From: a virus
IMG/VR virus record: IMGVR_UViG_3300042291_001073
Span: 1 to 64,000 of that record
DNA: 64,000 nt
Reading direction: 5' to 3' (one strand)
The position numbers and the translations under genes are program-made. The notes below the pieces were generated by a model. That model ran no database searches, had not been told where the DNA came from, and was given only the letters and a program-made list of their open reading frames with translations. Of the stretch, positions 2,231 to 47,782 are shown one piece after another; position 1 is the first letter of the stretch; each line of letters opens with the position of its first letter.

Positions 2231-4555
2231 TTATAACTTACATGCTTCGCAGTCATCGTCTAATTCTTCATAGACTGTTACTGGTGAAAGTGTAATTGCA
2301 CTACTTGTATTTGTCATGTCGGCCTTGGCGCCAACCTTATTAATTAAACTATAGTATATAGTCTTTAGTCCCCATCTGTAAGCCAGCATTAAGTTTTTGG
2401 CAATTACAGTTGCAGGTACTTTGCCTCCTGCATAATTGGCGGGATTATAGAATGTATTTGTTGACAAACTCTGATCAATGTAAACAGCCAATACTGAAGC
2501 TGTCTTCAAATAGTCAACACAATCTTTCTGATCCCACATTAACTGATAACGGTTCTTTAATCTCTTGTATTCTGGTACTACCTGTACAAACGATCCTGCC
2601 TTTGATTCTTTAACACTAATCATTTCCATGGGCATTTCAATTCCGTTAGTACTATTTAATACAACTGAACTAGACTCTACCGGAGCCACAGCCATCAATG
2701 TAGCATTGCGAATACCATACTTCTTCATACGTGCTCGTAACGGTTCCCAATCCATGCTGGGTGTAAAGTCAGTGAGTTCATTAACTCCAGCCTTGCGCCT
2801 TTCCCAGGGAAATACTCCCTTACCGTAGTAAGTGTACTGACTACGTCCGCATGGGCCTCGTTCTTGGGCAAGCTCGACACTGGCTTCAGTAAGGTAGTAG
2901 GCCTGATGTTCCATCCAACGCTTAACTTCTGCTAATGCTTCAGGAGTTCCATATTTGAAACTCTTACGAGCATGCCAGTAAGCAAGATTAGTAATGCCGA
3001 CTCCCAACGGTTCAAAATCTGTATTGGCCAATTTACTTTGTATACTTAGGAAGTCTTGATAGTTTAATAAGTTACTTAAACTACGAACTAGTACACGACA
3101 TGCTTTTCTCATCTCTTGCGGATTTCTGAACGCACCCCAGTTGATTGACCCAAGAGTGCAAAGAGCAATTCGTCCCTCTGGATCTTCAATTCTTTGGAAA
3201 GGTCGGGTGGGTAAAAGTATCTCCTGGCATAGGTTTGATTGATATATTGGGTCCACCGTCGTATCAAAGGGACCCTGGTTGATAACGTTGTCGATGTTGA
3301 CAAGATAAATGCGCCCAGTATCAGTTCTCTCTTTAAGAATTCCATTTTTGAATATCTCATCTGCCGATACAACTTTCTTTTTCTTTGTCTTATCTTGTTC
3401 ATATTGTAGATACAACTTTTCAAATTCTGCGCTGTTACGATAGTAGGCTTCGTATAGGTCTGGAACTTCTGCCGGATCAAATAAACTCATTGTTTCGCCA
3501 CGCTTATAACGATTCCAGAACATGGCATTAACTACTACACTGTAATCCATTTGGCGCACACGAGTTTCGTCTGTTCCTTGATTATTTTTAAGTACAATGA
3601 GATCTTCAAATTGAGCATGCCACACTGGGAATGTAACCGTACAGCTGGCATTGCGTATGCCGCCCTGACTGCATGATCTTAAATCAGCAAACCATTTCTT
3701 TAGGAATGGTATCATACCCGTATGTTTGATTTCACCATTGCGAATTGGGGCGCCTAACGGTCTGATTCTGCCTATTTCGAGACCAATACCGGCTCGTTTT
3801 GAGGCATATTTGGCCATCATTTCGCCTGCGGCGAATATCGAATCAAGGGTATCGTCACTGCTAATAAGCACACAACTACTGAACTGTTTAGTTGTAGTAC
3901 CGAGGCCAGCAAGCACAGGAGTAGCGAGAGTAAAATGACCATCGGACGCACATTCATAATATTCCTTTACTAATTTTAATCTAGTTTCTTTAGGTTCACT
4001 GTGAAACGCAGTTGCGGCGGCAATAGCGTAACGAACCTGTGGGGTTTCATAAATTTGTCCTGTAGCACGATTTTGTACAAGATATTTTTCTGCTAGTTGG
4101 GCAATGGCAGCAAAAGTGTAACCTTCATCTTTATCGTGATCTAAAAATAAATCAATGATCTTCCATTCGTCTTCAGTGTACCAATCTAGTAATTCACTAG
4201 TATACATTCCAGATTTAATGTTCTTCTGTACAATTTCATATAGGGGAGGAGGATCGTATGCACCGTATACTTCTTTGCGTAACATACTAACACGTTGCCT
4301 GCCTGCTACATATTGATAGTTAACATTGTTAATTTCTGGGTTTTCAGTTTCGTCAATTAAATTAACCATGGCCTTGAGCAATAACTCATCTATGGTCTGA
4401 GTAGTCATTCCGTCGTGCAATTCTATTTGTGCTTTAATTTCAATCATTGATGGACTAACTCCATCAATGCCTCTGCAGCCGTGGGCTACCTGTCTCTGTA
4501 TTTTTGCGATATCTAACGGGACACGATGCCCATTACGCTTGACCACTGTGATCAT
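2231..4555 (-). CDS. nrdA: Class Ia ribonucleoside-diphosphate reductase, alpha subunit
   Basis: This 774-residue protein is the catalytic subunit. It begins with an ATP-cone allosteric domain (VVKRNGHRVPLDIAKI at the N-terminus). The barrel has the three active-site cysteine contexts QFSSCVLI, SNLCQEI and IALCTLGSIN, the radical-relay tyrosine pair in KTIYY, and a C-terminal redox pair C769/C772 in CEACKL. All are consistent with a class I enzyme re-reduced by a glutaredoxin or thioredoxin, and a glutaredoxin start lies downstream at 1-47. The ATG follows an AGAGG ribosome-binding site. A late-type box (GGTAAATA, 4587-4594) lies 31 nt upstream, overlapping the previous gene's stop. Confidence 0.97.
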   Translation of the reverse strand: MITVVKRNGHRVPLDIAKIQRQVAHGCRGIDGVSPSMIEIKAQIELHDGMTTQTIDELLLKAMVNLIDETENPEINNVNYQYVAGRQRVSMLRKEVYGAYDPPPLYEIVQKNIKSGMYTSELLDWYTEDEWKIIDLFLDHDKDEGYTFAAIAQLAEKYLVQNRATGQIYETPQVRYAIAAATAFHSEPKETRLKLVKEYYECASDGHFTLATPVLAGLGTTTKQFSSCVLISSDDTLDSIFAAGEMMAKYASKRAGIGLEIGRIRPLGAPIRNGEIKHTGMIPFLKKWFADLRSCSQGGIRNASCTVTFPVWHAQFEDLIVLKNNQGTDETRVRQMDYSVVVNAMFWNRYKRGETMSLFDPAEVPDLYEAYYRNSAEFEKLYLQYEQDKTKKKKVVSADEIFKNGILKERTDTGRIYLVNIDNVINQGPFDTTVDPIYQSNLCQEILLPTRPFQRIEDPEGRIALCTLGSINWGAFRNPQEMRKACRVLVRSLSNLLNYQDFLSIQSKLANTDFEPLGVGITNLAYWHARKSFKYGTPEALAEVKRWMEHQAYYLTEASVELAQERGPCGRSQYTYYGKGVFPWERRKAGVNELTDFTPSMDWEPLRARMKKYGIRNATLMAVAPVESSSVVLNSTNGIEMPMEMISVKESKAGSFVQVVPEYKRLKNRYQLMWDQKDCVDYLKTASVLAVYIDQSLSTNTFYNPANYAGGKVPATVIAKNLMLAYRWGLKTIYYSLINKVGAKADMTNTSSAITLSPVTVYEELDDDCEACKL

Positions 4556-35118: not shown

Positions 35119-35126
35119 TATTTATA
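35119..35126 (-). promoter_or_regulatory. Perfect T4-type late promoter box
   Basis: TATAAATA on the minus strand, 23 nt before the ATG at 35095. The stop codon (TAA, 35122-35124) of the upstream 3024-residue gene is part of the box. An AAAGAAGA ribosome-binding region follows. Confidence 0.75.
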
Positions 35127-38100
35127 TGACTACGCCGCCACCGTCTATTGGCTCAATTCCACCGTAAATAGTGTTGGGAATTCCGCCATCTAAATTAGGA
35201 CTGCCTCCCGAGCCACCGCTACCTCCCCCACTTCCGGAAAAGCCTGCGCCCGCACTACCTGTATAACCACGAATTTGACCCACATCTAACCAAGTAGGAT
35301 TTATCCAAACGTGTAAGTGGCCGTCATTTGATGTTAGATATCCGTCTCCTGTTGTTCCATTATATGGATTTGGAAGTCCTGCGGCCGACCCTACAAACCC
35401 AACAATATTTAATCCGTTACCAGGAGCACCTTGACTACCTGTAAATCCCGAACCTGCCGAGCCTGTATAACCCTGCGGAATACTGAAATTTAATACCGCA
35501 TCGTATTCAGTGCCTGTGTTAGTTACTGTAGGGATTGAACCAGCGGTTCCAGTTGTTACAACACCAATTGTAATTGTAGAAGTACTACCACGACTACCTG
35601 CATAGCCTAATGCGGCTGCTTCACCTGGAATACCTTGACTACCTGTAAAACCTGTAGCACCTAGAGGTCCTACACTACCCGAATATCCTAAACTTCCTGA
35701 ATATCCTAAACTACCACTAAAACCTATAGGTCCTCTAGACCCTGTGTATCCTATAATACCCTGGAAGCCTTGTTGTCCTGCTGAACCTGTAAAACCTATA
35801 AAACCTTGTTCGCCTACAAAGCCAGTATCACCTTTACTACCTGTAAATCCAGTACTGCCGTCATATCCCTGGCTACCAGTAAAACCTATACTACCTGCAA
35901 ATCCTCGACTTCCAGTGTAACCTTCACTACCTGCAAATCCAGAAAACCCTCGACTACCAGTAAAGCCCGTAATACCAAAGCTACCCGTATAACCCGTTGA
36001 TCCAAAGCTACCAGTAAAGCCTGTAACACCCTGAGATCCAACGTAGCCAGTATCCCCCTGACTACCAGTATAACCAATGACTCCCTGTGATCCAGTAAAG
36101 CCAATAACACCCTGACTGCCAGTAAATCCAACAGCACCTCTGCTACCTGCATAGCCTCTATCACCCTGGTCACCTGTTCTAGCAAAGGTAACAACAACAG
36201 TCATTCCATCTGTGAATGTACCCGATCCTGACAGATATGAAACAGGTACATGGAAATGATTAGCTGATGGTATGCCTTCTTCAGTGTGAGATCCTGTTAT
36301 AGCAAATAGGGCAAAATTACTAGGATCTGCTTTTTCTGCTATTGAGAAGTGACCTTTGATCTGCGAAGTAGAATCATCTATGGTCTGCAGATATGTATAA
36401 ATTGATTCGCCTAGCTTATCATTAAAATTAATGTAGGCTACTGTAGTGCTTCCAGAAAAAGTTAACGTATCAAATTCAATCTCACCACCTAGTGGATCTG
36501 TGCCTATTACATCGGTGCTATACAGGAACTCAAAGGCTGCTCCACCGAATCCACCTTGTTCGCCCTTGCTACCAGTATATCCTAATACGCCTTGGCTACC
36601 TGTGTAACCTATGTCACCTTGTGATCCGGTATAACCTATTTCACCTTGACTGCCTGTGAAACCTATATCGCCTTTGCTACCTGTATATCCTAAACTACCA
36701 GTAAATCCAATATTACCCTGTGATCCAGTATAACCTATATCACCTTTACTACCAGTGTATCCAGCAAAACCTTCCGAACCAGCATCACCTTTCTCACCTT
36801 GACTACCAGTGTAACCCTGACTACCTGAGTAACCTTGGCTACCAGAATAGCCTTGGCTACCAGAATAGCCTTGACTTCCTGTCCATCCTTGAATACCCTG
36901 AATGCCTTGATCACCTTTGTCGCCTTTACTGCCAGTGTATCCTATATCACCTCGACTACCAGCATACCCTTTTTTGTCTTGTATATTAATATAGCCGATC
37001 ATTCCGCTATGGAATACACATTGATATACTATTTGATCCGGAGCATCATATGGTACCCTATATGAAACAAGTATGTTTGTTGCATAATTTCCCGTGGACG
37101 GATTATTATTTTCCATTCCGGGCAAGTTATTAGTGTTTCCACTAGCGTATCTAAATGCCAACGGATGTGAGCTAGTTATATTTTGTAAATCAAAGTATAC
37201 TAAGTCACCTCTTACTATTGTAAGTGTAGGGTAATTACTAGAAAATCCGTCTACAGTGTAATTAAATGCTCCTGCAGGATTATTCATTATGAATAATTGA
37301 CCGCCTTGGCTACCAACATAACCAACACTGCCTGTATATCCTTGACTACCTGAGTAACCTATACTACCTGTGAATCCTAATCCGCCACGACTACCTGTAA
37401 ATCCAAAACTTCCTATGAATCCGGTGTCACCTCGAGATCCTGTAAATCCTCGTGAACCAGTAAAACCTAATGCTCCAGCTGCACCAGCAGTTCCTTGACT
37501 ACCAGTGTAACCACGGCTACCACTAAAACCTGTAGCACCTTGGTCGCCTGTGTTACCTGCACTACCTTGACTGCCCGCATAACCAGAACTACCTACAAAT
37601 CCTGTTTCGCCCCGACTACCACTGTATCCAATTTCACCTTGACTACCTGTATAGCCGCCTGGATCACCTTGTGGACCTATACTACCTGTATAACCAACGC
37701 TACCAGTATAACCCAAGGCAGCGAATGCACCTGGAATACCTGCACTTCCAACAAAGCCTGTAAGACCTCGACTACCATTATAGCCCGCACTACCTGTAAA
37801 ACCTGTAATACCTGCACTGCCAAGAAAACCTCTACTACCTGTAAAGCCTGGTGGAACATCGGCGGAGATTGTTAGTTGTTTAGGAGCGGTGCCTGTATTG
37901 GTTGCTAATATAATATTGTTACCAGCAACTAATTTAATTGTATCTAGGCCTTGCGCTACTAATGTTTCTTGTCCATCTACTTCCCAATACTTGAAAGTAG
38001 AATTCATTCCGATCTTAACTGCACCTGCGCCTAGATCGGTGACATCAAATCCTGCATCACTGTCGAATCTAATAGTGTCAATGTTTGTAATTACATTAGA

Positions 38101-41100
38101 AACTGTAGTAGCATCTATTAAACTAACAGTTAGTTTAGAGGAGCTACCTGTGTAACCTGTCTCGCCTGGTGCGCCAGCACTACCAGTAAATCCTGCGCCT
38201 GCGGAGCCAGTAAATCCAGCTCCGGCACTACCTGTATAACCTATAGCTGCGGCTTCACCAGGAAGACCTTGACTACCTGTAAAACCAGTATCACCACCGG
38301 ATCCAGTGTAACCTGTATCACCATACGAACCTGCATAGCCAACTGAGCCTGTAAATCCAGTAAAACCTGTAAGACCTCGACTACCAGCATAACCAACTGG
38401 TCCTTGGTCACCTTGGCTACCTGCATAACCTTCACTGCCGGTATAGCCCAGACTACCAGTAAATCCTCTTGATCCAGAATAACCAACATCACCTCGACTA
38501 CCTGTATAACCTAAGGCTGCAAATGCACCTGGGATACCTTGGCTTCCAACAAAACCAGTATCGCCTTTATCGCCTTTGTCGCCCTTACTACCTTGGAATC
38601 CGGTGTCACCTTTTGATCCAACAAATCCTGTAAATCCAGTATCACCTTTGCTACCAGTAAAGCCAACAACACCTTGGCTACCAACAAAACCTGTATCGCC
38701 TTTATCACCTTTACTACCAGTATATCCTAAACTGCCAGTAAAGCCAACAATGCCCTGTGAACCAGTATAACCCAAGGCAGCATATTCACCTGCAATACCT
38801 TGACTACCGGTATAACCTAGACTACCTGTATAACCAAGATCGCCTCGACTACCTAAGAAGCCCTGATCGCCTTTGTCACCTTGACTACCAGTGTAACCAA
38901 TACTACCTGTATATCCTAAATCGCCTCGACTACCTTGGAATCCTCTTTCACCTTGGATACCCTGACTACCTGTAAAGCCAAAATCACCCTGTGTACCTTG
39001 GATACCTTGGAAACCACGACTACCAGTAAAGCCAGTTTCGCCTTGACTACCTGCGAATCCTAGGCTACCAGTAAAGCCAATAACACCCTGGCTACCTGTG
39101 TAACCTATGTCGCCTTGACTACCTGAATAACCTATTACACCTTGGCTTCCTGTGAAACCTTGTTCGCCTTGAATACCCTGTTCACCCTGAACACCTTGTG
39201 ATCCAGTATAGCCGCCTGCAGGTCCCGCTGGGCCTTCATCTCCTTTACTACCAGTGAATCCAGTATCACCCTGGAAACCTTGATCACCTTGTGTACCTAA
39301 GCTACCAGTGTAGCCTAATTCACCTATCTCGCCTTGATCACCTCGATCACCTTTACTGCCAGTATATCCACGTGACCCTACAAAACCTAGAGCACCTGTG
39401 TCACCTTGGAAACCTCTACTACCAACAAACCCAGTGCTACCTACAAATCCCGAGAATCCTCTTGATCCAGTAAAGCCAACATCACCTCTTGATCCTACAA
39501 ACCCAACAAGGCCTCTACTACCTGTGTAGCCTTTGCCTTCTGTGAATAAAATGTATCCATAGTTGTTGGGATTTACAATACTTTGATAGACTATGTAGTC
39601 TTGTATTAGAATAGGAATTTCTATGTATATTACTATACCGCTTATAGTTTCCTGAGAACCTGAAGGAAATCCAGGAACTATGTCTGTATCATTGCCCGGT
39701 TCTGTCCTAAAAGCAACTGCGTCACCACCAGTTATTGCAGTTAAGTCAAGATAATAACTCTGGCCTCTAATGAATGTCAGTGTTGGATTTAATTCAGCGA
39801 ATCCTGTTACGTTAAAATTAGCATTAACTGACATGAATTGGTATCGAGTGCCGCCTTGGCTACCACTGTAGCCAATGCTACCTGTAAATCCCTGAATACC
39901 TTGGCTACCAACAAAACCAGTACTGCCTGTAAATCCGGTGCTACCTGTATATCCCTGGCTTCCAGTGTAACCTTGGTCACCTTTGCTACCGGAGTAACCA
40001 AAGTCACCTTTGCTACCGGAGTAACCAAAGTCACCTTTGCTACCGGAGTAACCACTATCTCCTTGGCTTCCTGTAAAACCAATAGCGTCATAAGCACCAC
40101 GACTACCACTAAAACCAATAACACCTTGTGAGCCAGTAAATCCAGTTGATCCACTATATCCAATTGAGCCAACAAAGCCCGCTGACCCTGTGTACCCTTG
40201 GCTTCCAGTAAATCCCTCACTACCTGAGTAACCTTCTGAACCAGTGAAACCTTCTGAACCAGTAAAACCTTTACTTCCTGAGTAGCCGCGACTACCAGTG
40301 TAACCCAACTCACCTTGTGAGCCGTCATACCCAGTTACACCAGCACTACCAGTATAACCAACACTACCAGTATAGGCCCTGCTACCTGTAAAACCTGCAA
40401 TACCCTGACTACCTACAAAGCCCGTACTACCTAAGAAACCTTGACTACCTGTATAACCTTGACTACCTGTATATCCAAAATCACCTGCACTACCTACAAA
40501 TCCAGTGTCGCCACGAGATCCTGCAAATCCTCTTGAACCTGTAAAACCTAGACTACCAGTGTATCCTTTGCTACCAGTGTATCCTTTTCCCTGTGTTATT
40601 GTAGGTTGAATAACAGCTATAGTAAATGCAGCACTGGCAGTTTGTGGTACCTCATCTGTGGCTATAACAGTATATTCTGTAGCAGTAGTAACTGCTGTAG
40701 GTGTGCCTGTTATTTCACCAGTAACCGTGCTGAAAACTAATCCTGCAGGTAATTGAGTTGGTGATATAGCATAGGTGATAGTTCCAAAGCCGCCGCTAGC
40801 ACTAATAGGTGTGAACTCAGTAGGAGTACTGATATCTAAACTGTATGCATTGTTGACTGCTGTGACAATTAATGGGTCAGGAATAAAATCATTAACAGTT
40901 AAATCAAATGTACCTGTTTTACTATTACCATAAGCGTCAGTAGCGGTAACTGTGTACACATCAGTTGTGGCAACAGCGGTAGGAGTCCCAGAAATTTCAC
41001 CGTTACTTGGATTAAAAGTCAATCCACTGGGTAGTGCAGGACTTAACAAATAGGCTATTTGATCACCTGTGGCAGTTACTGGCCTTACTGGACTTATAGC

Positions 41101-44100
41101 ACTGTATTTGATAAAAATCAGTGTAAGATTATTAACTGTTAAAACAACAGGACGAGGTAAAACATTTAAACTAAATGTACTTGTACTCTTTTGCGACAGA
41201 CTATCTGTTGCTGTTATTGAGTAAGTGGCAGTAGATGACGGTACTGAAGGTGTACCTCTAATAGCTGCGGTGCTTACATCAAATAATAATCCAGTTGGTA
41301 GTACAGGACCAATACTAAATGTAACTTGACCGTCACCACCAAATGCAGTCACAGGTGTAAATGAAGCTGCTGTCACTCCAACTGTTAATGTTACTGAAGA
41401 TGTAGTAGCTGTTGTTACTATGGCAGCAGGAAGATTAACAGTTAACTCAAATGACTTGCTGCTTGTGTTATTTTGGTTATCAGTTGCAGTTACAACAAAT
41501 GTTGTAATAGTGATTGCTTCAGACGGAGTACCTGAAATCCCACCTGTTGAAATATTGAATGTTAGTCCAGTAGGTAAACTTGGGCTAATAGAAAAAGTTG
41601 TAGATCCGTTGCCGCCTGCAGAAGTTACAGGAGTAAATGGAGTAATTGGTTTACCGCGAGTTGCGGTGCTTGCAAGAACAACTAACGTTGTAGACAACGG
41701 AGGGTAAGTGATTGTTAGTGCATAAGTTTTACTACTTGTCTGACCTAGACTATCTGTAGCAGTAATAGTATGAATCTGATCACTTAACTGACTGGCAATT
41801 CCAGAAATTCTACCATTAGAAGAGCTAAAGGCCAGCCCGCTTGGTAATGTTGGATTAATAGAGAACGATATCGATCCATAACCGCCTTGAGCACTAACCG
41901 GGCTAACTCCAACTGTATCTACTAGTCTAAAGAATGTGCCACTGGTAACATCTAGAGTAGTTGTTATTGCTGGAGGATTAACGACATTTAAATTAAATGT
42001 ACTTGTGCTACGAACTAATAAAGAATCAGCAACTGTAACTGAATAAGTAGCGGTATTGCTAGTAGTTGTAGCTGTACCTGTGATCTGTCCATTAGATGTA
42101 CTGAAATTTAAACCACTTGGTAAACTTGAACCAATACTAAATGTATATACTTCCGAGCCACCTATAACAGTAACCGGTATGTACGGAGTTATAGGTACGG
42201 CTCTAATAAACGTATTACTACCAACTACGGTAGTTGTGATTAGTGGCTTAGTATTAACTGTTAATAAGAATGTACCAGTACTGACCTGTAGAGCTGTATC
42301 TCGAACTGTTACAGAAAACGTTGTAGCAGTTACTAAGAATCTTGTAGGAGTACCCGACACCTGTCCAGTACTACCTGCAAAGTTTAAACCCAGCGGTAGT
42401 GTGGGACTAATAGTGTATGCTAACGCACCATAACCGCCTGATCCTAGTACGGGTGTAAATGACGTAACTGGATCATACTGTATTAATGTCTTGCTTGGTA
42501 TAGTCTGTATAGTCAGTGCTGGTGGCGCTTCTATAGTTAAAGCAAATGTCTTACTACTATTCTGTGTTGCGACATCGGTAACTGTTACTGTATACGTTGT
42601 TTGAGCACTGTTTACTGTAGCTGTTCCGCTGATACTACCGTTAACTGTACTAAATGTTAAACCAGTTGGTAGACTAGGACTGATAGCATAGGATAGTGTT
42701 CCATCCCCACCACTGGCAGTAACAGGAGTAAATGATCCTATAGCAACATTTTGTATACCAACTTTGCTTGCAATAACTTGTGTGGTTGATAGGACACCCG
42801 GAACTACTTCAATACTAAAACTCTTACTAGTAGTTTGCGTTGCTTGGTCAGCAATAGAAACAGTGTAAGTAACTGGCGAACTTAACGCACTTGGATTACC
42901 GGTTATTTGTCCAGTTGCTGTATTAAATGACAAGCCAGCAGATAGACTCGGCGTAATAGAATATGCGAGTGTACCATACCCGCCCTGACCACTGACTGGA
43001 ATAAAAGAATACGACTGAGAATTTTTAGTCAGCGTCGATGATTCTATTAATAGTGTAGAAGTTAACGACGGTAATTCTGCAACAGTTATACTGAACGACT
43101 TACTGCTAGTCTGTGCAGGAGTATTTGAATCTGAAACTGTTACTGTATAATTAGTTGGAGAAGATACCGCTGTAGCTGGACCAGTAATATTTCCAGTAGA
43201 AGTGTTAAGACTCATTCCAGTTGGCAAAGCTGGACTAATAGAATATGATAATGTTCCAATGCCTCCTGCTCCGCTTACTGGTTTAAATGAAGCAAATGCT
43301 ATTGTTCTGGTAAACGAGTACGAAGACAGTGCTAGTGTTGTAGTAACTAGCGGAGCTTCTACAGTTAAGGTAAATGTCTGGCTACTGGTTGCTAGATTAA
43401 CATCAGTAACCGTTACAGTGTAGACTGTGACTATACTCGAAACACTAGGTGTTCCTGTAATCTGTCCGGTAGATGAGCTAAAACTTAATCCTGTAGGCAA
43501 TGCTGGACTAATGCTGAATACCTTAGCACCATCTCCACCTGTAGCAGTTACTGGAGTAAAGGCTGCGGCCGCAGTGCCCTGTGTTAACGTCTTGGTAGCT
43601 ATTGCTTGTGTAGTTGCTAATGGACTTGAACCGGAATCTATAGTTAAGGTAAAAGTTGTACTGCCTGTGTTTCCTGCCTGATCTGTAAAGGTTAGGGTAA
43701 ACGTTGTTAGAGCAATGCTAGCCGTTGGTGTACCACTTAGTCGTACATCAGCAGCATTATATAAATTCTGTGTAGTATCAGGATTTGTTCTTGTTATTAA
43801 ACCCTGATTCGTTGTTGATAAAGTTAACCCAGCAGGTAATGCAGGACTTACTGAAAGTGTATAACAAGGGCTTACACCTCTAACTGTGTTGCTAGTTCCA
43901 CCTGTAGGAATAATAGCAGTTCCACCATAGGCTGTGGCAATAACTGCGCTGAAAACTTGACTTGTTAATCCACTGTTACTGTTAATTAATGTACTAGCGG
44001 TGATCGTTGGCAATGCTACAGGAGGAACTATACCTGTAGGTTTAGGGTAAAGTATTTTACCAGCAGATAATCCTGTACCAGGTGTAGCCTTAAATATGGC

Positions 44101-44196
44101 TCCGTTCTGGTTAATGTAGTAATCGCCGTTAGAATAGTTGTAATTCGTTGCTGCGGGCGTTGCAACAGGATTGGGGTAATAGTAAATTAATGCCAC
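35122..44196 (-). CDS. Giant fibre: Ig-like array plus long collagen-like region (3024 residues)
   Basis: Residues about 60-1205 hold about twelve Ig-like (putative-Ig/cadherin-like) repeats of about 90 residues with the signature LP-x-GL-x-F-x-x-x-x-G-x-I-x-GTP. Residues about 1205-3000 are a collagen-like Gly-x-y region with very little proline, interrupted by small beta domains. One interruption (about residues 2298-2408) is a cupredoxin-like domain with H2344, C2393, H2396 and M2399. Another (near 1450-1555) is a copy lacking these ligands. The start is GTG, 7 nt after an AATAAATA box, without a Shine-Dalgarno. It is probably a long, flexible host-recognition fibre. Confidence 0.9.
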   Translation of the reverse strand: MALIYYYPNPVATPAATNYNYSNGDYYINQNGAIFKATPGTGLSAGKILYPKPTGIVPPVALPTITASTLINSNSGLTSQVFSAVIATAYGGTAIIPTGGTSNTVRGVSPCYTLSVSPALPAGLTLSTTNQGLITRTNPDTTQNLYNAADVRLSGTPTASIALTTFTLTFTDQAGNTGSTTFTLTIDSGSSPLATTQAIATKTLTQGTAAAAFTPVTATGGDGAKVFSISPALPTGLSFSSSTGQITGTPSVSSIVTVYTVTVTDVNLATSSQTFTLTVEAPLVTTTLALSSYSFTRTIAFASFKPVSGAGGIGTLSYSISPALPTGMSLNTSTGNITGPATAVSSPTNYTVTVSDSNTPAQTSSKSFSITVAELPSLTSTLLIESSTLTKNSQSYSFIPVSGQGGYGTLAYSITPSLSAGLSFNTATGQITGNPSALSSPVTYTVSIADQATQTTSKSFSIEVVPGVLSTTQVIASKVGIQNVAIGSFTPVTASGGDGTLSYAISPSLPTGLTFSTVNGSISGTATVNSAQTTYTVTVTDVATQNSSKTFALTIEAPPALTIQTIPSKTLIQYDPVTSFTPVLGSGGYGALAYTISPTLPLGLNFAGSTGQVSGTPTRFLVTATTFSVTVRDTALQVSTGTFLLTVNTKPLITTTVVGSNTFIRAVPITPYIPVTVIGGSEVYTFSIGSSLPSGLNFSTSNGQITGTATTTSNTATYSVTVADSLLVRSTSTFNLNVVNPPAITTTLDVTSGTFFRLVDTVGVSPVSAQGGYGSISFSINPTLPSGLAFSSSNGRISGIASQLSDQIHTITATDSLGQTSSKTYALTITYPPLSTTLVVLASTATRGKPITPFTPVTSAGGNGSTTFSISPSLPTGLTFNISTGGISGTPSEAITITTFVVTATDNQNNTSSKSFELTVNLPAAIVTTATTSSVTLTVGVTAASFTPVTAFGGDGQVTFSIGPVLPTGLLFDVSTAAIRGTPSVPSSTATYSITATDSLSQKSTSTFSLNVLPRPVVLTVNNLTLIFIKYSAISPVRPVTATGDQIAYLLSPALPSGLTFNPSNGEISGTPTAVATTDVYTVTATDAYGNSKTGTFDLTVNDFIPDPLIVTAVNNAYSLDISTPTEFTPISASGGFGTITYAISPTQLPAGLVFSTVTGEITGTPTAVTTATEYTVIATDEVPQTASAAFTIAVIQPTITQGKGYTGSKGYTGSLGFTGSRGFAGSRGDTGFVGSAGDFGYTGSQGYTGSQGFLGSTGFVGSQGIAGFTGSRAYTGSVGYTGSAGVTGYDGSQGELGYTGSRGYSGSKGFTGSEGFTGSEGYSGSEGFTGSQGYTGSAGFVGSIGYSGSTGFTGSQGVIGFSGSRGAYDAIGFTGSQGDSGYSGSKGDFGYSGSKGDFGYSGSKGDQGYTGSQGYTGSTGFTGSTGFVGSQGIQGFTGSIGYSGSQGGTRYQFMSVNANFNVTGFAELNPTLTFIRGQSYYLDLTAITGGDAVAFRTEPGNDTDIVPGFPSGSQETISGIVIYIEIPILIQDYIVYQSIVNPNNYGYILFTEGKGYTGSRGLVGFVGSRGDVGFTGSRGFSGFVGSTGFVGSRGFQGDTGALGFVGSRGYTGSKGDRGDQGEIGELGYTGSLGTQGDQGFQGDTGFTGSKGDEGPAGPAGGYTGSQGVQGEQGIQGEQGFTGSQGVIGYSGSQGDIGYTGSQGVIGFTGSLGFAGSQGETGFTGSRGFQGIQGTQGDFGFTGSQGIQGERGFQGSRGDLGYTGSIGYTGSQGDKGDQGFLGSRGDLGYTGSLGYTGSQGIAGEYAALGYTGSQGIVGFTGSLGYTGSKGDKGDTGFVGSQGVVGFTGSKGDTGFTGFVGSKGDTGFQGSKGDKGDKGDTGFVGSQGIPGAFAALGYTGSRGDVGYSGSRGFTGSLGYTGSEGYAGSQGDQGPVGYAGSRGLTGFTGFTGSVGYAGSYGDTGYTGSGGDTGFTGSQGLPGEAAAIGYTGSAGAGFTGSAGAGFTGSAGAPGETGYTGSSSKLTVSLIDATTVSNVITNIDTIRFDSDAGFDVTDLGAGAVKIGMNSTFKYWEVDGQETLVAQGLDTIKLVAGNNIILATNTGTAPKQLTISADVPPGFTGSRGFLGSAGITGFTGSAGYNGSRGLTGFVGSAGIPGAFAALGYTGSVGYTGSIGPQGDPGGYTGSQGEIGYSGSRGETGFVGSSGYAGSQGSAGNTGDQGATGFSGSRGYTGSQGTAGAAGALGFTGSRGFTGSRGDTGFIGSFGFTGSRGGLGFTGSIGYSGSQGYTGSVGYVGSQGGQLFIMNNPAGAFNYTVDGFSSNYPTLTIVRGDLVYFDLQNITSSHPLAFRYASGNTNNLPGMENNNPSTGNYATNILVSYRVPYDAPDQIVYQCVFHSGMIGYINIQDKKGYAGSRGDIGYTGSKGDKGDQGIQGIQGWTGSQGYSGSQGYSGSQGYSGSQGYTGSQGEKGDAGSEGFAGYTGSKGDIGYTGSQGNIGFTGSLGYTGSKGDIGFTGSQGEIGYTGSQGDIGYTGSQGVLGYTGSKGEQGGFGGAAFEFLYSTDVIGTDPLGGEIEFDTLTFSGSTTVAYINFNDKLGESIYTYLQTIDDSTSQIKGHFSIAEKADPSNFALFAITGSHTEEGIPSANHFHVPVSYLSGSGTFTDGMTVVVTFARTGDQGDRGYAGSRGAVGFTGSQGVIGFTGSQGVIGYTGSQGDTGYVGSQGVTGFTGSFGSTGYTGSFGITGFTGSRGFSGFAGSEGYTGSRGFAGSIGFTGSQGYDGSTGFTGSKGDTGFVGEQGFIGFTGSAGQQGFQGIIGYTGSRGPIGFSGSLGYSGSLGYSGSVGPLGATGFTGSQGIPGEAAALGYAGSRGSTSTITIGVVTTGTAGSIPTVTNTGTEYDAVLNFSIPQGYTGSAGSGFTGSQGAPGNGLNIVGFVGSAAGLPNPYNGTTGDGYLTSNDGHLHVWINPTWLDVGQIRGYTGSAGAGFSGSGGGSGGSGGSPNLDGGIPNTIYGGIEPIDGGGVVI
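36976..37305 (-). other. Cupredoxin-like domain with intact copper ligands
   Basis: Domain inside the 3024-residue fibre. The ligand set is His (codon 37165-37167, SSHPLAF), then 49 residues on Cys (37018-37020), then His (37009-37011) and Met (37000-37002) in the string QCVFHSGMIGYI. Cys-x2-His-x2-Met matches the amicyanin spacing and the first His-to-Cys distance is close to plastocyanin's. Flanked on both sides by Gly-x-y repeats. Confidence 0.7.
39538..39843 (-). other. Cupredoxin-like domain that lost all copper ligands
   Basis: Paralogue of the domain at 36976-37305 in the same protein: the first His is Asp (GGDAVAFR), Cys is Ser, the second His is Asn and Met is Asn (YQSIVNPNNYGYI). 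The frame and fold-defining residues (YPTL/NPTL-x-F/I-x-RG, GYI) are kept, so it is a structural module without metal. Confidence 0.65.
39976..40053 (-). repeat. 27-bp tandem repeat in collagen-like coding region
   Basis: Three head-to-tail copies of a 27-bp unit (copies start at 39976, 40003 and 40030), identical at the DNA level for 78 bases. Each codes for nine residues, three Gly-x-y triplets (GYSGSKGDF). Third positions do not vary, so the expansion is recent and probably by slippage. Confidence 0.9.
40600..43960 (-). repeat. Array of about twelve Ig-like repeats
   Basis: Coding repeats of about 270 bp in the N-terminal third of the 3024-residue fibre, each with LP-x-GL and G-x-I-x-GTP-type strands and a hydrophobic TVTVTD strand. 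The unit sequences have diverged at the DNA level, so this array is older than the collagen-like part. Confidence 0.85.
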
Positions 44197-44203
44197 GATG
44201 TAG

Positions 44204-44211
44204 TATTTATT
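44204..44211 (-). promoter_or_regulatory. Late box 7 nt before the 3024-residue fibre start
   Basis: AATAAATA followed by CTACATC and the GTG start at 44196. No Shine-Dalgarno is present. It belongs to the close-spaced class of late boxes in this window. Confidence 0.55.
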
Positions 44212-44218
44212 TTAAATA

Positions 44219-47200
44219 TTAGGCTGCTCTCACTGTGAGATCTAATAGACTGTTGTAGCCTAAACCAGTGTCAACCATAATAAAAATACTTTCTGTAACG
44301 TCATCGTAGTAAAAATCTCCCGGTAATAAATCATCAATAGACAGTCCGTTAGCTGCATCAGCATTTGTGTACATCTGCGGCGCTTTTGATCGCTGGATAC
44401 TTCCGTCAGCAAATGTAATAACACCATCTACACCTAATGTTAGATTAGCAAATGTAACACTGCTAGTGGTGTTTAAATCTTGGTCAGCGCCCGGTCCGGC
44501 ACTACCCGTGTATCCTAAATCTCCAGCGCTACCGGTATATCCATCTACACCTATTATACCGTCTTGACCCGCACTACCCGTATATCCTAAGTCACCCTGG
44601 CTACCCGTGTATCCTAAATCTCCAGCACTACCGGTATATCCATCTACACCAGCACTACCAACATAACCAACATCACCCTGTGAACCTACATAGCCAACAT
44701 TACCTTGACTACCTGCATATCCAGTGTCGCCTTTCTCGCCTACACTACCTACATAGCCAACATCACCTTGACTACCTACATAGCCAACATCACCTTGAGA
44801 TCCTGCGTAGCCAGTATCGCCCTTGTCGCCCTGTGAGCCTACATAGCCAACATCACCCCGAGAGCCCACATAGCCAAGTTCGCCCTGTGAGCCAGTGTAT
44901 CCATCTACACCTTGACTACCTGTAAAACCTGTACTGCCAGTATAACCTAGATCACCCTGGGGTCCTACAATTGTACCAACATCTGACCAGGTTACTCCTA
45001 CCCAAATGTTTAAGTGTCCATTGTCTGAAGTGATATATCCGTCACCTATATCTCCAGTATATGATCCGGGTAGAGCTGCGTATGTAGATGTACTTCCTAT
45101 AATCTTTACGCTAGTACCATCAGTACCTTTGCTACCAGTATAACCTATGTCGCCCTGTGATCCAGTGTAACCAATGTCACCTTGACTGCCAGTGTAACCT
45201 TGACTTCCTGTGAAGCCTAGGTCGCCTTGACTGCCTGTAAAGCCCTGTACACCCTGACTACCGGTAAATCCTTGACTACCTGAATAGCCCTGACTTCCAG
45301 TAAATCCTAGGTCGCCCTGACTTCCAGTAAATCCTAGGTCGCCCTGCGAACCGGTGTAACCTTCTGATCCAGCATAGCCCTTACTTCCTGTAAAGCCTAG
45401 ATCTCCTTGACTACCAGTGAATCCAGTTATACCTTGGCTTCCACTGTAGCCCTGTGAACCAGTATAACCTTCTGATCCAGTATAACCTTCTGATCCAGTA
45501 TAACCTTCACTGCCTGTGTAACCTTGACTTCCACTGTAGCCCTGCGATCCGGTGTAACCTTCTGATCCGACGTATCCTGTATCACCTTGTGAACCGCTAA
45601 AACCTAGGCTACCACTAAAGCCAATAAATCCAGAGCTACCAGTGAAACCTATAATGCCACGTGAACCAGAGTATCCCTGACTACCTGTAAATCCTTCTGA
45701 TCCGGTATAACCTTCTGATCCGGTATAACCTTCACTGCCAGTATATCCAATGTCCCCTTGAGATCCGGTGTAACCTATATCACCTTGACTACCCGTAAAT
45801 CCAGTATCACCCTGTGATCCAGTATAGCCCTCTGATCCAGTATAACCTAGACTACCAGTATATCCACGACTACCGCTATAGCCTGCACTACCTGTAAATC
45901 CTTCTGATCCAGTATAACCTTCGCTGCCAGTGTAACCCTGACTGCCGGTGTAACCACGACTACCTGAAAAACCAATACTTCCTGTAAATCCCTTGCTGCC
46001 TGAATATCCAAGTGAGCCAGTGTAACCTACTGAACCAGTATAGCCTTCACTGCCTGTAAATCCTATGCTGCCAGTATAACCTTGGCTACCTGTCCATCCT
46101 GTTAATCCCTGTGGTCCAACAATCTGTCCGGCACTGTACCAACTGGTGCCATCCCATACATAGATGTCACCATTATCTTCAACAATGTACGAATCATTTA
46201 TTGTGTTACTAGTGATTGTCTCGGCAACTATGTTAATAGTTCCAATCATACTGCTATGATAACGGCATTGGTACACTATACTATTTGGTGCATCCGATGG
46301 TACTGTATAGGTTACGGTTGCCCCGGAACCGTAGACTCCATTAACTGAGTCATTCCCTTGTGCTCCCGGCACACTACTAGTATTACCATCTGATAACCTT
46401 AGTGCTATAGGGTGTCCGCTTGTTACTGCTGTAAAATTAAAGACGTAAGTTCTGCCGCGAATTAAACTTAATGTAGGATAATTTCCTCCATATCCGTCAA
46501 CTGTGTATGCAAATCCAGGATTTTGAAATACAAATGTTTCTGCGGTTCCTGTTGGTGGTCCTAGAGGAAGATCCTGAACTGTAGCAACAGCTCCTAATAA
46601 CGTAATAGGAAGTCCCTGGTCACCCTTGTCTCCCTTACTACCTGTATAACCAAAGCTACCTATGTATCCAGTACTGCCTACAAAACCTACACTACCTGTA
46701 TATCCTATGCTGCCAGTAAATCCCTGACTACCAGCAAATCCAACACTGCCAGTATAACCTTGACTACCGGAGTATCCTAAACTTCCTGTATAGCCCCGAC
46801 TACCTGCGTAACCTTCACTTCCACTATAGCCCTGACTACCTGCATATCCAATTGAACCAGTGAATCCCAGTTCGCCTCGGTCGCCTTTGCTGCCAGTATA
46901 TCCCTGACTACCAGTATATCCCTGACTACCTGTCCATCCTGTTATACCTTGTGACCCAGTATAACCTTGACTACCTGAATAACCTTGACTGCCGGTATAA
47001 CCTAGGCTACCTGTGTAGCCAATAACACCTTGGCTACCTACAAAGCCACGAGATCCGCTGTAACCTTGACTACCATTGTAACCTACTATTCTACCTACCT
47101 GATGCCAGGCATTTTGGTACCAAGACCATAGAACTCCAGTTTCGACTACTACGAAACTATCACCTGGCGTTCCTGTGTAGGAATTAGGGTAACCAGGAAG

Positions 47201-47782
47201 ATCAGTATAGGTTTGGACATTTCCTAAAATTATACTTGAAAAACCTTGACTACCTGTGTAGCCAAGAACACCTTGACTGCCTATATAACCTTGACTACCT
47301 ATATATCCAGAATCTCCGCGACTACCAGTGTACCCTCTAGGACCCTTCACTTCGCCAACATTAATCCACGCTGCTCCGTCCCATACCCATAGATTTCCTG
47401 TGGGTTTTTCAATATATCCGGCACCAATTGATCCTGTATACCCTACTATAAGATCAGTGTTTGTATTAACAGACCCAAGGATAGTAACGCCACCACTTAT
47501 GCCGCCTCCAGCCCCGCCACCACTTACTGGAACCCAATTGGTATTGTCGTGGATGTAGAATACTTGATCAACGGTATTGTACCATATAGTATTTGCACTA
47601 GGGTATGGTGCAACATCGCTCTGTATTATTGTGCCGCCAATAACTCGGCCGCCTGGGGTAACTCCGTCACCTAATCTTAATTCAGCAATTGTGCCATCAT
47701 ACCAGATTACACCGCGGTCACCAACCCATGTTGAGGACTCAACAGTTATTATTCTACCGGCTTGGACTTTATAGATTGGCAT
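44219..47782 (-). CDS. Collagen-like fibre with cupredoxin-like domain (1187 residues)
   Basis: Begins with an attachment-type module (MPIYKVQAGRIITVESSTW, LRLGDGVTPGGRVIGG). Long Gly-x-y tracts based on GYTGSQG/GFTGSQG follow, with a small beta-sandwich insertion at about residues 55-140 and another near 195-225. A cupredoxin-like domain lies at about residues 416-524 with H457, C506, H509 and M512 (YQCRYHSSMIGTI). The C-terminal 90 residues are a beta domain. The ATG lies 5 nt after a GGTAAATA box, without a Shine-Dalgarno. It is likely a fibre that pairs with the 3024-residue protein. Confidence 0.89.
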   Translation of the reverse strand: MPIYKVQAGRIITVESSTWVGDRGVIWYDGTIAELRLGDGVTPGGRVIGGTIIQSDVAPYPSANTIWYNTVDQVFYIHDNTNWVPVSGGGAGGGISGGVTILGSVNTNTDLIVGYTGSIGAGYIEKPTGNLWVWDGAAWINVGEVKGPRGYTGSRGDSGYIGSQGYIGSQGVLGYTGSQGFSSIILGNVQTYTDLPGYPNSYTGTPGDSFVVVETGVLWSWYQNAWHQVGRIVGYNGSQGYSGSRGFVGSQGVIGYTGSLGYTGSQGYSGSQGYTGSQGITGWTGSQGYTGSQGYTGSKGDRGELGFTGSIGYAGSQGYSGSEGYAGSRGYTGSLGYSGSQGYTGSVGFAGSQGFTGSIGYTGSVGFVGSTGYIGSFGYTGSKGDKGDQGLPITLLGAVATVQDLPLGPPTGTAETFVFQNPGFAYTVDGYGGNYPTLSLIRGRTYVFNFTAVTSGHPIALRLSDGNTSSVPGAQGNDSVNGVYGSGATVTYTVPSDAPNSIVYQCRYHSSMIGTINIVAETITSNTINDSYIVEDNGDIYVWDGTSWYSAGQIVGPQGLTGWTGSQGYTGSIGFTGSEGYTGSVGYTGSLGYSGSKGFTGSIGFSGSRGYTGSQGYTGSEGYTGSEGFTGSAGYSGSRGYTGSLGYTGSEGYTGSQGDTGFTGSQGDIGYTGSQGDIGYTGSEGYTGSEGYTGSEGFTGSQGYSGSRGIIGFTGSSGFIGFSGSLGFSGSQGDTGYVGSEGYTGSQGYSGSQGYTGSEGYTGSEGYTGSEGYTGSQGYSGSQGITGFTGSQGDLGFTGSKGYAGSEGYTGSQGDLGFTGSQGDLGFTGSQGYSGSQGFTGSQGVQGFTGSQGDLGFTGSQGYTGSQGDIGYTGSQGDIGYTGSKGTDGTSVKIIGSTSTYAALPGSYTGDIGDGYITSDNGHLNIWVGVTWSDVGTIVGPQGDLGYTGSTGFTGSQGVDGYTGSQGELGYVGSRGDVGYVGSQGDKGDTGYAGSQGDVGYVGSQGDVGYVGSVGEKGDTGYAGSQGNVGYVGSQGDVGYVGSAGVDGYTGSAGDLGYTGSQGDLGYTGSAGQDGIIGVDGYTGSAGDLGYTGSAGPGADQDLNTTSSVTFANLTLGVDGVITFADGSIQRSKAPQMYTNADAANGLSIDDLLPGDFYYDDVTESIFIMVDTGLGYNSLLDLTVRAA
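45453..45506 (-). repeat. 18-bp tandem repeat in collagen-like coding region
   Basis: Three 18-bp units (the last two identical, 45471-45488 and 45489-45506; the first diverged) coding for GYTGSE, two Gly-x-y triplets. A related pair occurs near 45685-45730. Confidence 0.85.
46210..46535 (-). other. Cupredoxin-like domain with intact copper ligands (second gene)
   Basis: In the 1187-residue fibre. First His codon 46412-46414 (TSGHPIALR), Cys 46265-46267, His 46256-46258, Met 46247-46249. The first His and Cys are 49 residues apart, exactly as in the other intact copy. Flanked by Gly-x-y repeats. Confidence 0.7.

Follow-up and report, generated by a model that had tools for sequence, protein, structure and literature searches.

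Two adjacent genes of the IMG/VR virus record IMGVR_UViG_3300042291_001073 encode collagen-like fibre proteins (P0001 and P0002) that contain three domains of about 110 amino acids, here called D1, D2, and D3. The window, i.e., the whole stretch of DNA analyzed, comprises bases 1-64,000 of this 70,871-base record. Based on sequence comparisons, D1 and D2 belong to a large and apparently unnamed phage domain family, which also provides the C-terminus of gp9 in T4-like cyanophages. Both domains place the His, Cys, His, and Met of a type-1 copper site in a predicted cupredoxin fold, and we consider it likely that such a full-ligand site binds copper. On balance, D1/D2-type domains would best be described as knob modules with type-1 copper that belong to the adsorption structures of phages and are accompanied by recurrent ligand-less structural paralogues. 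Across the family, the ligands are mostly either all retained or all missing, and this suggests that many aquatic phages carry copper in their attachment machinery.

Three cupredoxin-like domains in two fibre genes

D1, D2, and D3 align with each other over their full length, and D2 and D3 share 46% and 34% of their residues with D1, respectively, from which it follows that the three are homologous. In a search of the complete 70,871-base record that yielded no further copy, D1 matched D2 with 49% identity (E 2.2e-32) and D3 matched D2 with E 5.5e-10, whose 70,871 bases yielded no further copy. The type-1 order His...Cys-x2-4-His-xn-Met occurs at the right places of the fold in D1 and D2 but not in D3, which has Asp, Ser, Asn, and Asn in the four positions (Table 1). 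A preliminary description of this DNA had correctly located the three domains inside collagen-like fibre proteins, where they are read from the minus strand, and had also recognized the four substitutions in D3 and its retained fold pattern. The His and the Cys-x2-His-x2-Met motif that it reported for D1 and D2 are indeed common to both; the spacing of 49 residues, however, is the His-Cys offset, which leaves 48 residues in between.

A model of D2 was predicted by AlphaFold2 from an alignment of 47 relatives and reached a mean predicted local distance difference test score (pLDDT) of 95.3. In this model, the first His lies just ahead of the strand formed by residues 48-51, the Cys ends the strand 90-95, and the second His and the Met are found in the loop preceding the strand 102-108. 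Cupredoxins hold their type-1 ligands at those same strand and loop positions. A Foldseek search of the D2 model against the PDB returned cupredoxins nearly throughout the matches listed (best E 3.6e-4; template modeling (TM) score about 0.5-0.6), including copper nitrite reductase, plastocyanin, rusticyanin, laccases, and amicyanin. The AlphaFold model of D3 (pLDDT 87.1) also has cupredoxins as its best fold matches in the PDB, which are weaker than those of D2 (best E 5.5e-3). As far as the predicted models go, both D2 and D3 thus show the Greek-key beta-sandwich of the cupredoxin superfamily.

Kinship to known cupredoxins can also be seen by sequence when a profile is used. The profile of the 47 relatives matched PDB sequences of copper nitrite reductase (1.9e-5), plastocyanin (1.7e-3), and amicyanin (0.05), with no phage proteins among these matches, and in its alignment with plastocyanin all four ligand columns coincide with the plastocyanin copper ligands. 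Single sequences fall short of this: a phmmer search against the PDB gave marginal matches alone (best 0.13) and a single-sequence scan of viral sequences found nothing, which is why profiles were required. Neither D1 nor D2 has a match in Pfam, D2 has none in NCBIfam, and the Copper-bind family (PF00127) remained unmatched by D1, D2, and D3 even at E 1, with weak matches in nine relatives (best E 0.013). The amicyanin family TIGR02657 gave weak matches in nine of the 47 relatives (best E 0.0016). The cupredoxin fold with a full type-1 ligand set, as proposed earlier for two of the domains, is supported by the D2 model, the profile, and the fold matches. Its description as amicyanin-like holds for the spacing of the Cys-x2-His-x2-Met loop and finds no support beyond that in the family models; comparison with cupredoxin families by hidden Markov models, which the preliminary description had suggested, leads to the blue copper proteins through the profile of relatives and to no Pfam family for D1 and D2 themselves. 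Chance likeness or a misread frame, on the other hand, is ruled out by the long open frames together with the profile and fold support.

The plus-strand translations of the region are full of stops. Both minus-strand proteins consist mostly of collagen-like Gly-x-y/GxxGS repeats, and they match the Pfam collagen family PF01391 with E 2.4e-152 (P0001) and E 5.3e-99 (P0002). P0001 additionally matches He_PIG (E 6.5e-94), with about 12 of these immunoglobulin (Ig)-like domains toward its N-terminus. While D1 and D3 are directly flanked by collagen arms, D2 is apparently nested in a small W-containing fibre module, as if inserted (read by eye). The module is present at residues ~88-147, ~395-556 (the copy that holds D2), and ~890-940 of P0002 and ~2925-2977 of P0001, and it is uninterrupted except at D2. 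P0001 also has two His-x-His motifs (residues 2647/2649 and 2960/2962) of the kind proposed as iron binders in fibre tips.

Table 1. Fibre genes, domains, and ligand codons of the window, and full-ligand copies at the C-terminus of short collagen-like fibres in other viral contigs
Feature	Position	Strand	Basis
P0001, 3024-aa fibre protein; He_PIG Ig-like N-terminal side, collagen-like arms, D3 and D1	35122..44196	-	open frame, Pfam
P0002, 1187-aa collagen-like fibre protein with D2	44219..47782	-	open frame, Pfam
D1, cupredoxin-like, full ligand set (P0001 residues 2298-2407)	36976..37305	-	PHROG 677 match, identity to D2
D1 ligand His2344 codon	37165..37167	-	translation, three-way alignment
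D1 Cys2393-x2-His2396-x2-Met2399	37000..37020	-	translation, three-way alignment
D2, cupredoxin-like, full ligand set (P0002 residues ~413-524)	46210..46546	-	AlphaFold, PDB fold matches, PHROG 677
D2 ligand His457 codon	46412..46414	-	translation, invariant column
D2 Cys506-x2-His509-x2-Met512	46247..46267	-	translation, invariant columns
D3, ligand-less homologue: Asp1492, Ser1539, Asn1542, Asn1545 (P0001 residues ~1450-1553)	39538..39849	-	match to D2, AlphaFold, fold matches
Full-ligand C-terminal copy (L225)	G012:C1:2685-3002		
Full-ligand C-terminal copy (L223)	G014:C1:4221-4553		
Full-ligand C-terminal copy (L224)	G015:C1:4385-4717		

Distribution of the family and conservation of its ligands

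D1 and D2 match PHROG 677, the baseplate wedge/tail fibre connector gp9, with E 4.3e-14 and 2.8e-21, respectively. The matches span profile positions 315-410 of 412, i.e., the C-terminal ~95 residues, and preserve the His, Cys, His, and Met. D3 reaches E 0.1 in the same comparison, and its family membership therefore follows from its homology to D1 and D2 and not from its own match. A tblastn search with D2 hit 316 phage records, all of which are Synechococcus or Prochlorococcus phages, cyanophages, or marine viruses, and gp9 is annotated in nearly all among the matches listed. Hundreds of cyanophages have the domain at the C-terminus of gp9, and it is also present in the gene that follows. 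The D1 search also retrieves a protein of podovirus P-SCSP2, the proximal long tail fibre of S-SCSM1, and large proteins of P-HM2 and S-BM3, and among viral structure models the best match of D2 is the P-SSM2 proximal tail fibre (TM score 0.80). A scan of viral contigs, whose seed patterns included Cys and His, gave at least 564 confirmed relatives, and the His-Cys offset across the family is 41-59 (variable loop).

In bacterial assemblies, 12 contigs contain the domain. Some of them may be phage sequence binned with bacteria, as in the case of the collagen-like L092. Two others encode full-ligand domains in lipoprotein-like proteins, one beside a CHRD domain (L097 6001-6276, Mesohalobacter halotolerans) and one in a short protein (L093 1966-2271, from a Bacteroidetes metagenome-assembled genome); these are a possible cellular source of the domain. 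The D2 fold was also matched by giant viruses, namely by short "beta-sandwich proteins" of Pithovirus/Marseillevirus metagenome genomes (BFVD A0A481Z6J5, A0A481Z7Q7, and A0A481YVH3). Furthermore, one viral fibre protein contains three near-identical full-ligand copies in tandem, about 200 residues apart (G009:C1:28376-29944; L229).

The sole invariant columns in the profile of 47 relatives are the four ligands and one Tyr, but those rows were picked for having the four residues, and the fair test is provided by ligand-blind counts. Since the patterns of the first viral scan contained the Cys and His, which biases its ligand counts, two ligand-blind scans were made: one seeded on the gp9 N-terminus (the gp9 set also takes in gp9 proteins from the earlier scan) and one on the part of the collagen-fibre type that precedes the first His, i.e., its N-terminal half. 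An alignment containing D3 was too divergent to serve as a seed. In gp9, the four places read HCHM (one-letter codes) in 119 of 121 domain copies, with one HCYM and one gapped, and all four residues are invariant in 38 clusters with less than 85% identity. Of the 96 copies that start before residue 520 in the gene after gp9, 91 are HCHM, two are HCHQ, and three have gaps at the site. Later copies in this gene nearly all lack the four residues, although they are so divergent that the alignment of their site is uncertain. The collagen-fibre type gave 46 HCHM among 59, one copy that is cut off, and twelve without the site (DSDQ, DSSQ, NSSF, NSSY, FTSY, and HTSF). The ligands thus do not vary freely in the homologues of other phages, a check that had been proposed for the original prediction.

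Complete loss of the ligands recurs across the family, namely in a DSDQ/DSSQ clade, in ASSA, NSSF, NSSY, and FTSY copies, and in the late copies after gp9. When the ligand columns were excluded from tree building, five changes were needed to explain the ligand-less state, two of which are forced by well-supported branches; D3 groups near D2 and away from the DSDQ clade, but its branch is very long. Several viruses have copies of both kinds, full and ligand-less, and in one case (L026) both are found in a single protein. In G012, G014, and G015, the copy of the collagen-fibre type has DSDQ or DSSQ in the four places, and a second copy with all ligands is located at the extreme C-terminus of a short collagen-like fibre (Table 1). 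Because ligand-less copies are common beside full ones, the earlier conclusion that only one site tolerates the loss of its ligands is incorrect. The use of D3 as an internal control is sound in kind, but D3 is not unique in this respect. The same coexistence means that the knob itself does not depend on the metal.

A site that has been retained is in most cases complete. After pooling at 80% identity with recognizable late copies left out, 88 clusters keep all four ligands, 20 keep none (about half of them still late post-gp9 copies), and three are intermediate, compared with 47, 0.2, and 64 expected if the residues were independent, a contrast that is inflated because the sequences are related through one tree and the biased scan was pooled. 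The four residues act as one unit, which would be expected if they bind a metal but not if they serve in packing.

A cyanophage origin of the window is not established and its host need not be a cyanobacterium, because the nearest relatives of its NrdA (2231-4555, minus strand) are found in Xanthomonas and Stenotrophomonas phages (54-60% identity). The fibre protein P0005 (31943-35095, minus strand) has an Mtd_N start and TCYRDxGYIIDxVxxDxLxGGN-type repeats. It gave an unexpected Pfam match to Phycobilisome (29.9 bits; cut-off 22.2), though no single stretch passes, and the match is probably a chance likeness of the repeats.

The putative copper site and competing explanations

In the explanation that we favor, D1 and D2 would be cupredoxin-superfamily beta-sandwich knobs between the collagen-like arms of tail fibres. 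The His opening the middle strand, the Cys closing the penultimate strand, and the His and Met in the loop ahead of the last strand would most likely hold one copper ion in type-1 geometry. Collagen-like fibres are usually trimeric, and a trimeric fibre would present three ions per knob level. D3 would be a paralogue in which the entire site is gone and a simple knob remains. Because assembly of the virion takes place in the cytoplasm, which contains very little free copper, loading would most likely occur after lysis, when the sites of particles assembled empty could fill. The bound metal may then pin the Cys-His-Met loop and thereby fix the shape of a surface used for fibre attachment or host contact. 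We regard this combination of loading after lysis and loop pinning as tentative and as less likely than not. Rigidity, redox sensing, and receptor binding, which the preliminary description had named, would be candidate roles. A bolder version is rather unlikely, in which a large share of aquatic tailed phages would carry type-1 copper in baseplate and fibres, the site would fill outside the cytoplasm only and act as a maturation or environment switch setting fibre attachment or deployment, and the ligand-less paralogues would be metal-independent counterparts.

Several points weigh against copper-loaded knobs, besides the inflated all-or-none contrast mentioned above. Assembly in a copper-scarce cytoplasm means that copper occupancy of the virions is not assured. 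D3-like copies show that the knob is stable enough to persist without the site. Moreover, no functional data on the gp9 domain were found. The persistence of ligand-less copies, which retain the predicted fold and coexist with full ones, would also fit a purely structural knob. In that case, the His, Cys, His, and Met would go back to an ancestral copper protein and would have been retained because they serve packing or folding, and the virion would contain hardly any metal or none. Packing residues, however, would be expected to drift singly, whereas the four are kept or lost jointly and are invariant or nearly so in the ligand-blind gp9 and next-gene sets, which makes this explanation improbable.

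Slightly less probable still is that the copper site itself makes the contact, either with a ligand on the host surface or with a protein that handles copper, so that copper status would set adsorption through a receptor-binding element. The short collagen-like fibres of G012, G014, and G015 carry their full-ligand copies where a receptor-binding tip would be expected, and the idea of iron in fibre tips (PMC11705849), itself a hypothesis, offers a precedent. The domains of the window, in contrast, are internal, between collagen arms, and gp9 is a baseplate connector rather than a fibre tip, with a strongly conserved domain that is unlike the typically variable receptor-binding tips.

A natural site for a different metal, for which zinc as a structural staple would be the foremost candidate, is very unlikely. 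Cys/His sites can bind zinc, which is more available than copper in the cytoplasm during assembly, but a conserved Met (invariant in 38 of 38 gp9 clusters) that has this spacing and order within a cupredoxin fold is the pattern of type-1 copper sites and would be unusual for structural zinc. A metabolic copper enzyme such as viral nirK (PMC8115048) was rejected, as the domain is embedded in fibre proteins.

Significance and comparison with known proteins

Cupredoxin domains of phage fibres or of gp9 are not described in the open-access full text searched, which is weak evidence of absence with subscription journals outside the scope. The fold and ligand set are already known; their widespread setting in structural proteins, including its conservation, appears to be new. 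If copper is indeed bound at these sites, cyanophages and many other aquatic phages would carry it in their particles, in analogy to the idea of iron in fibres, and this could affect phage stability, adsorption, and the chemistry of copper in the sea. As the gp9 copy is present in cultured Synechococcus and Prochlorococcus phages, the question is testable on purified virions by ordinary metal analysis. The family is also unrecognized by Pfam, and searches of virus contigs for genes of host origin could mistake its members for metabolic copper proteins.

The domains resemble plastocyanin, amicyanin, and other small type-1 cupredoxins (PF00127 and TIGR02657) in their predicted fold and in the order and position of the ligands, and their Cys-x2-His-x2-Met loop is that of amicyanin. 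Small type-1 cupredoxins, however, are free electron carriers, while members of the D1/D2 family are parts of phage fibre and baseplate proteins with the variable His-Cys offset given above. A weak likeness of some relatives is also seen to the At5g54830-like domain (PF25489), which matched 13 of the 47 (best E 8.4e-5; the score shown for L097, 21.6 bits, lies below the curated cut-off of 27) and neither D1 nor D2. With gp9 of PHROG 677, D1 and D2 share the C-terminal ~95 positions and the four residues. gp9 has a single C-terminal copy after its own N-terminal part, whereas the copies of P0001 and P0002 lie between collagen-like arms and lack that part. The nearest idea is that of iron-binding HxH sites in the tips of T4-type long tail fibres, together with the Ferrojan horse hypothesis (PMC11705849). 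There, too, a metal is proposed in the phage adsorption apparatus together with conserved metal-binding fibre residues (PMC11705849). Those tips coordinate iron octahedrally through His-x-His pairs, whereas a single type-1 copper in a cupredoxin domain is predicted here, so that fold, residues, and metal all differ.

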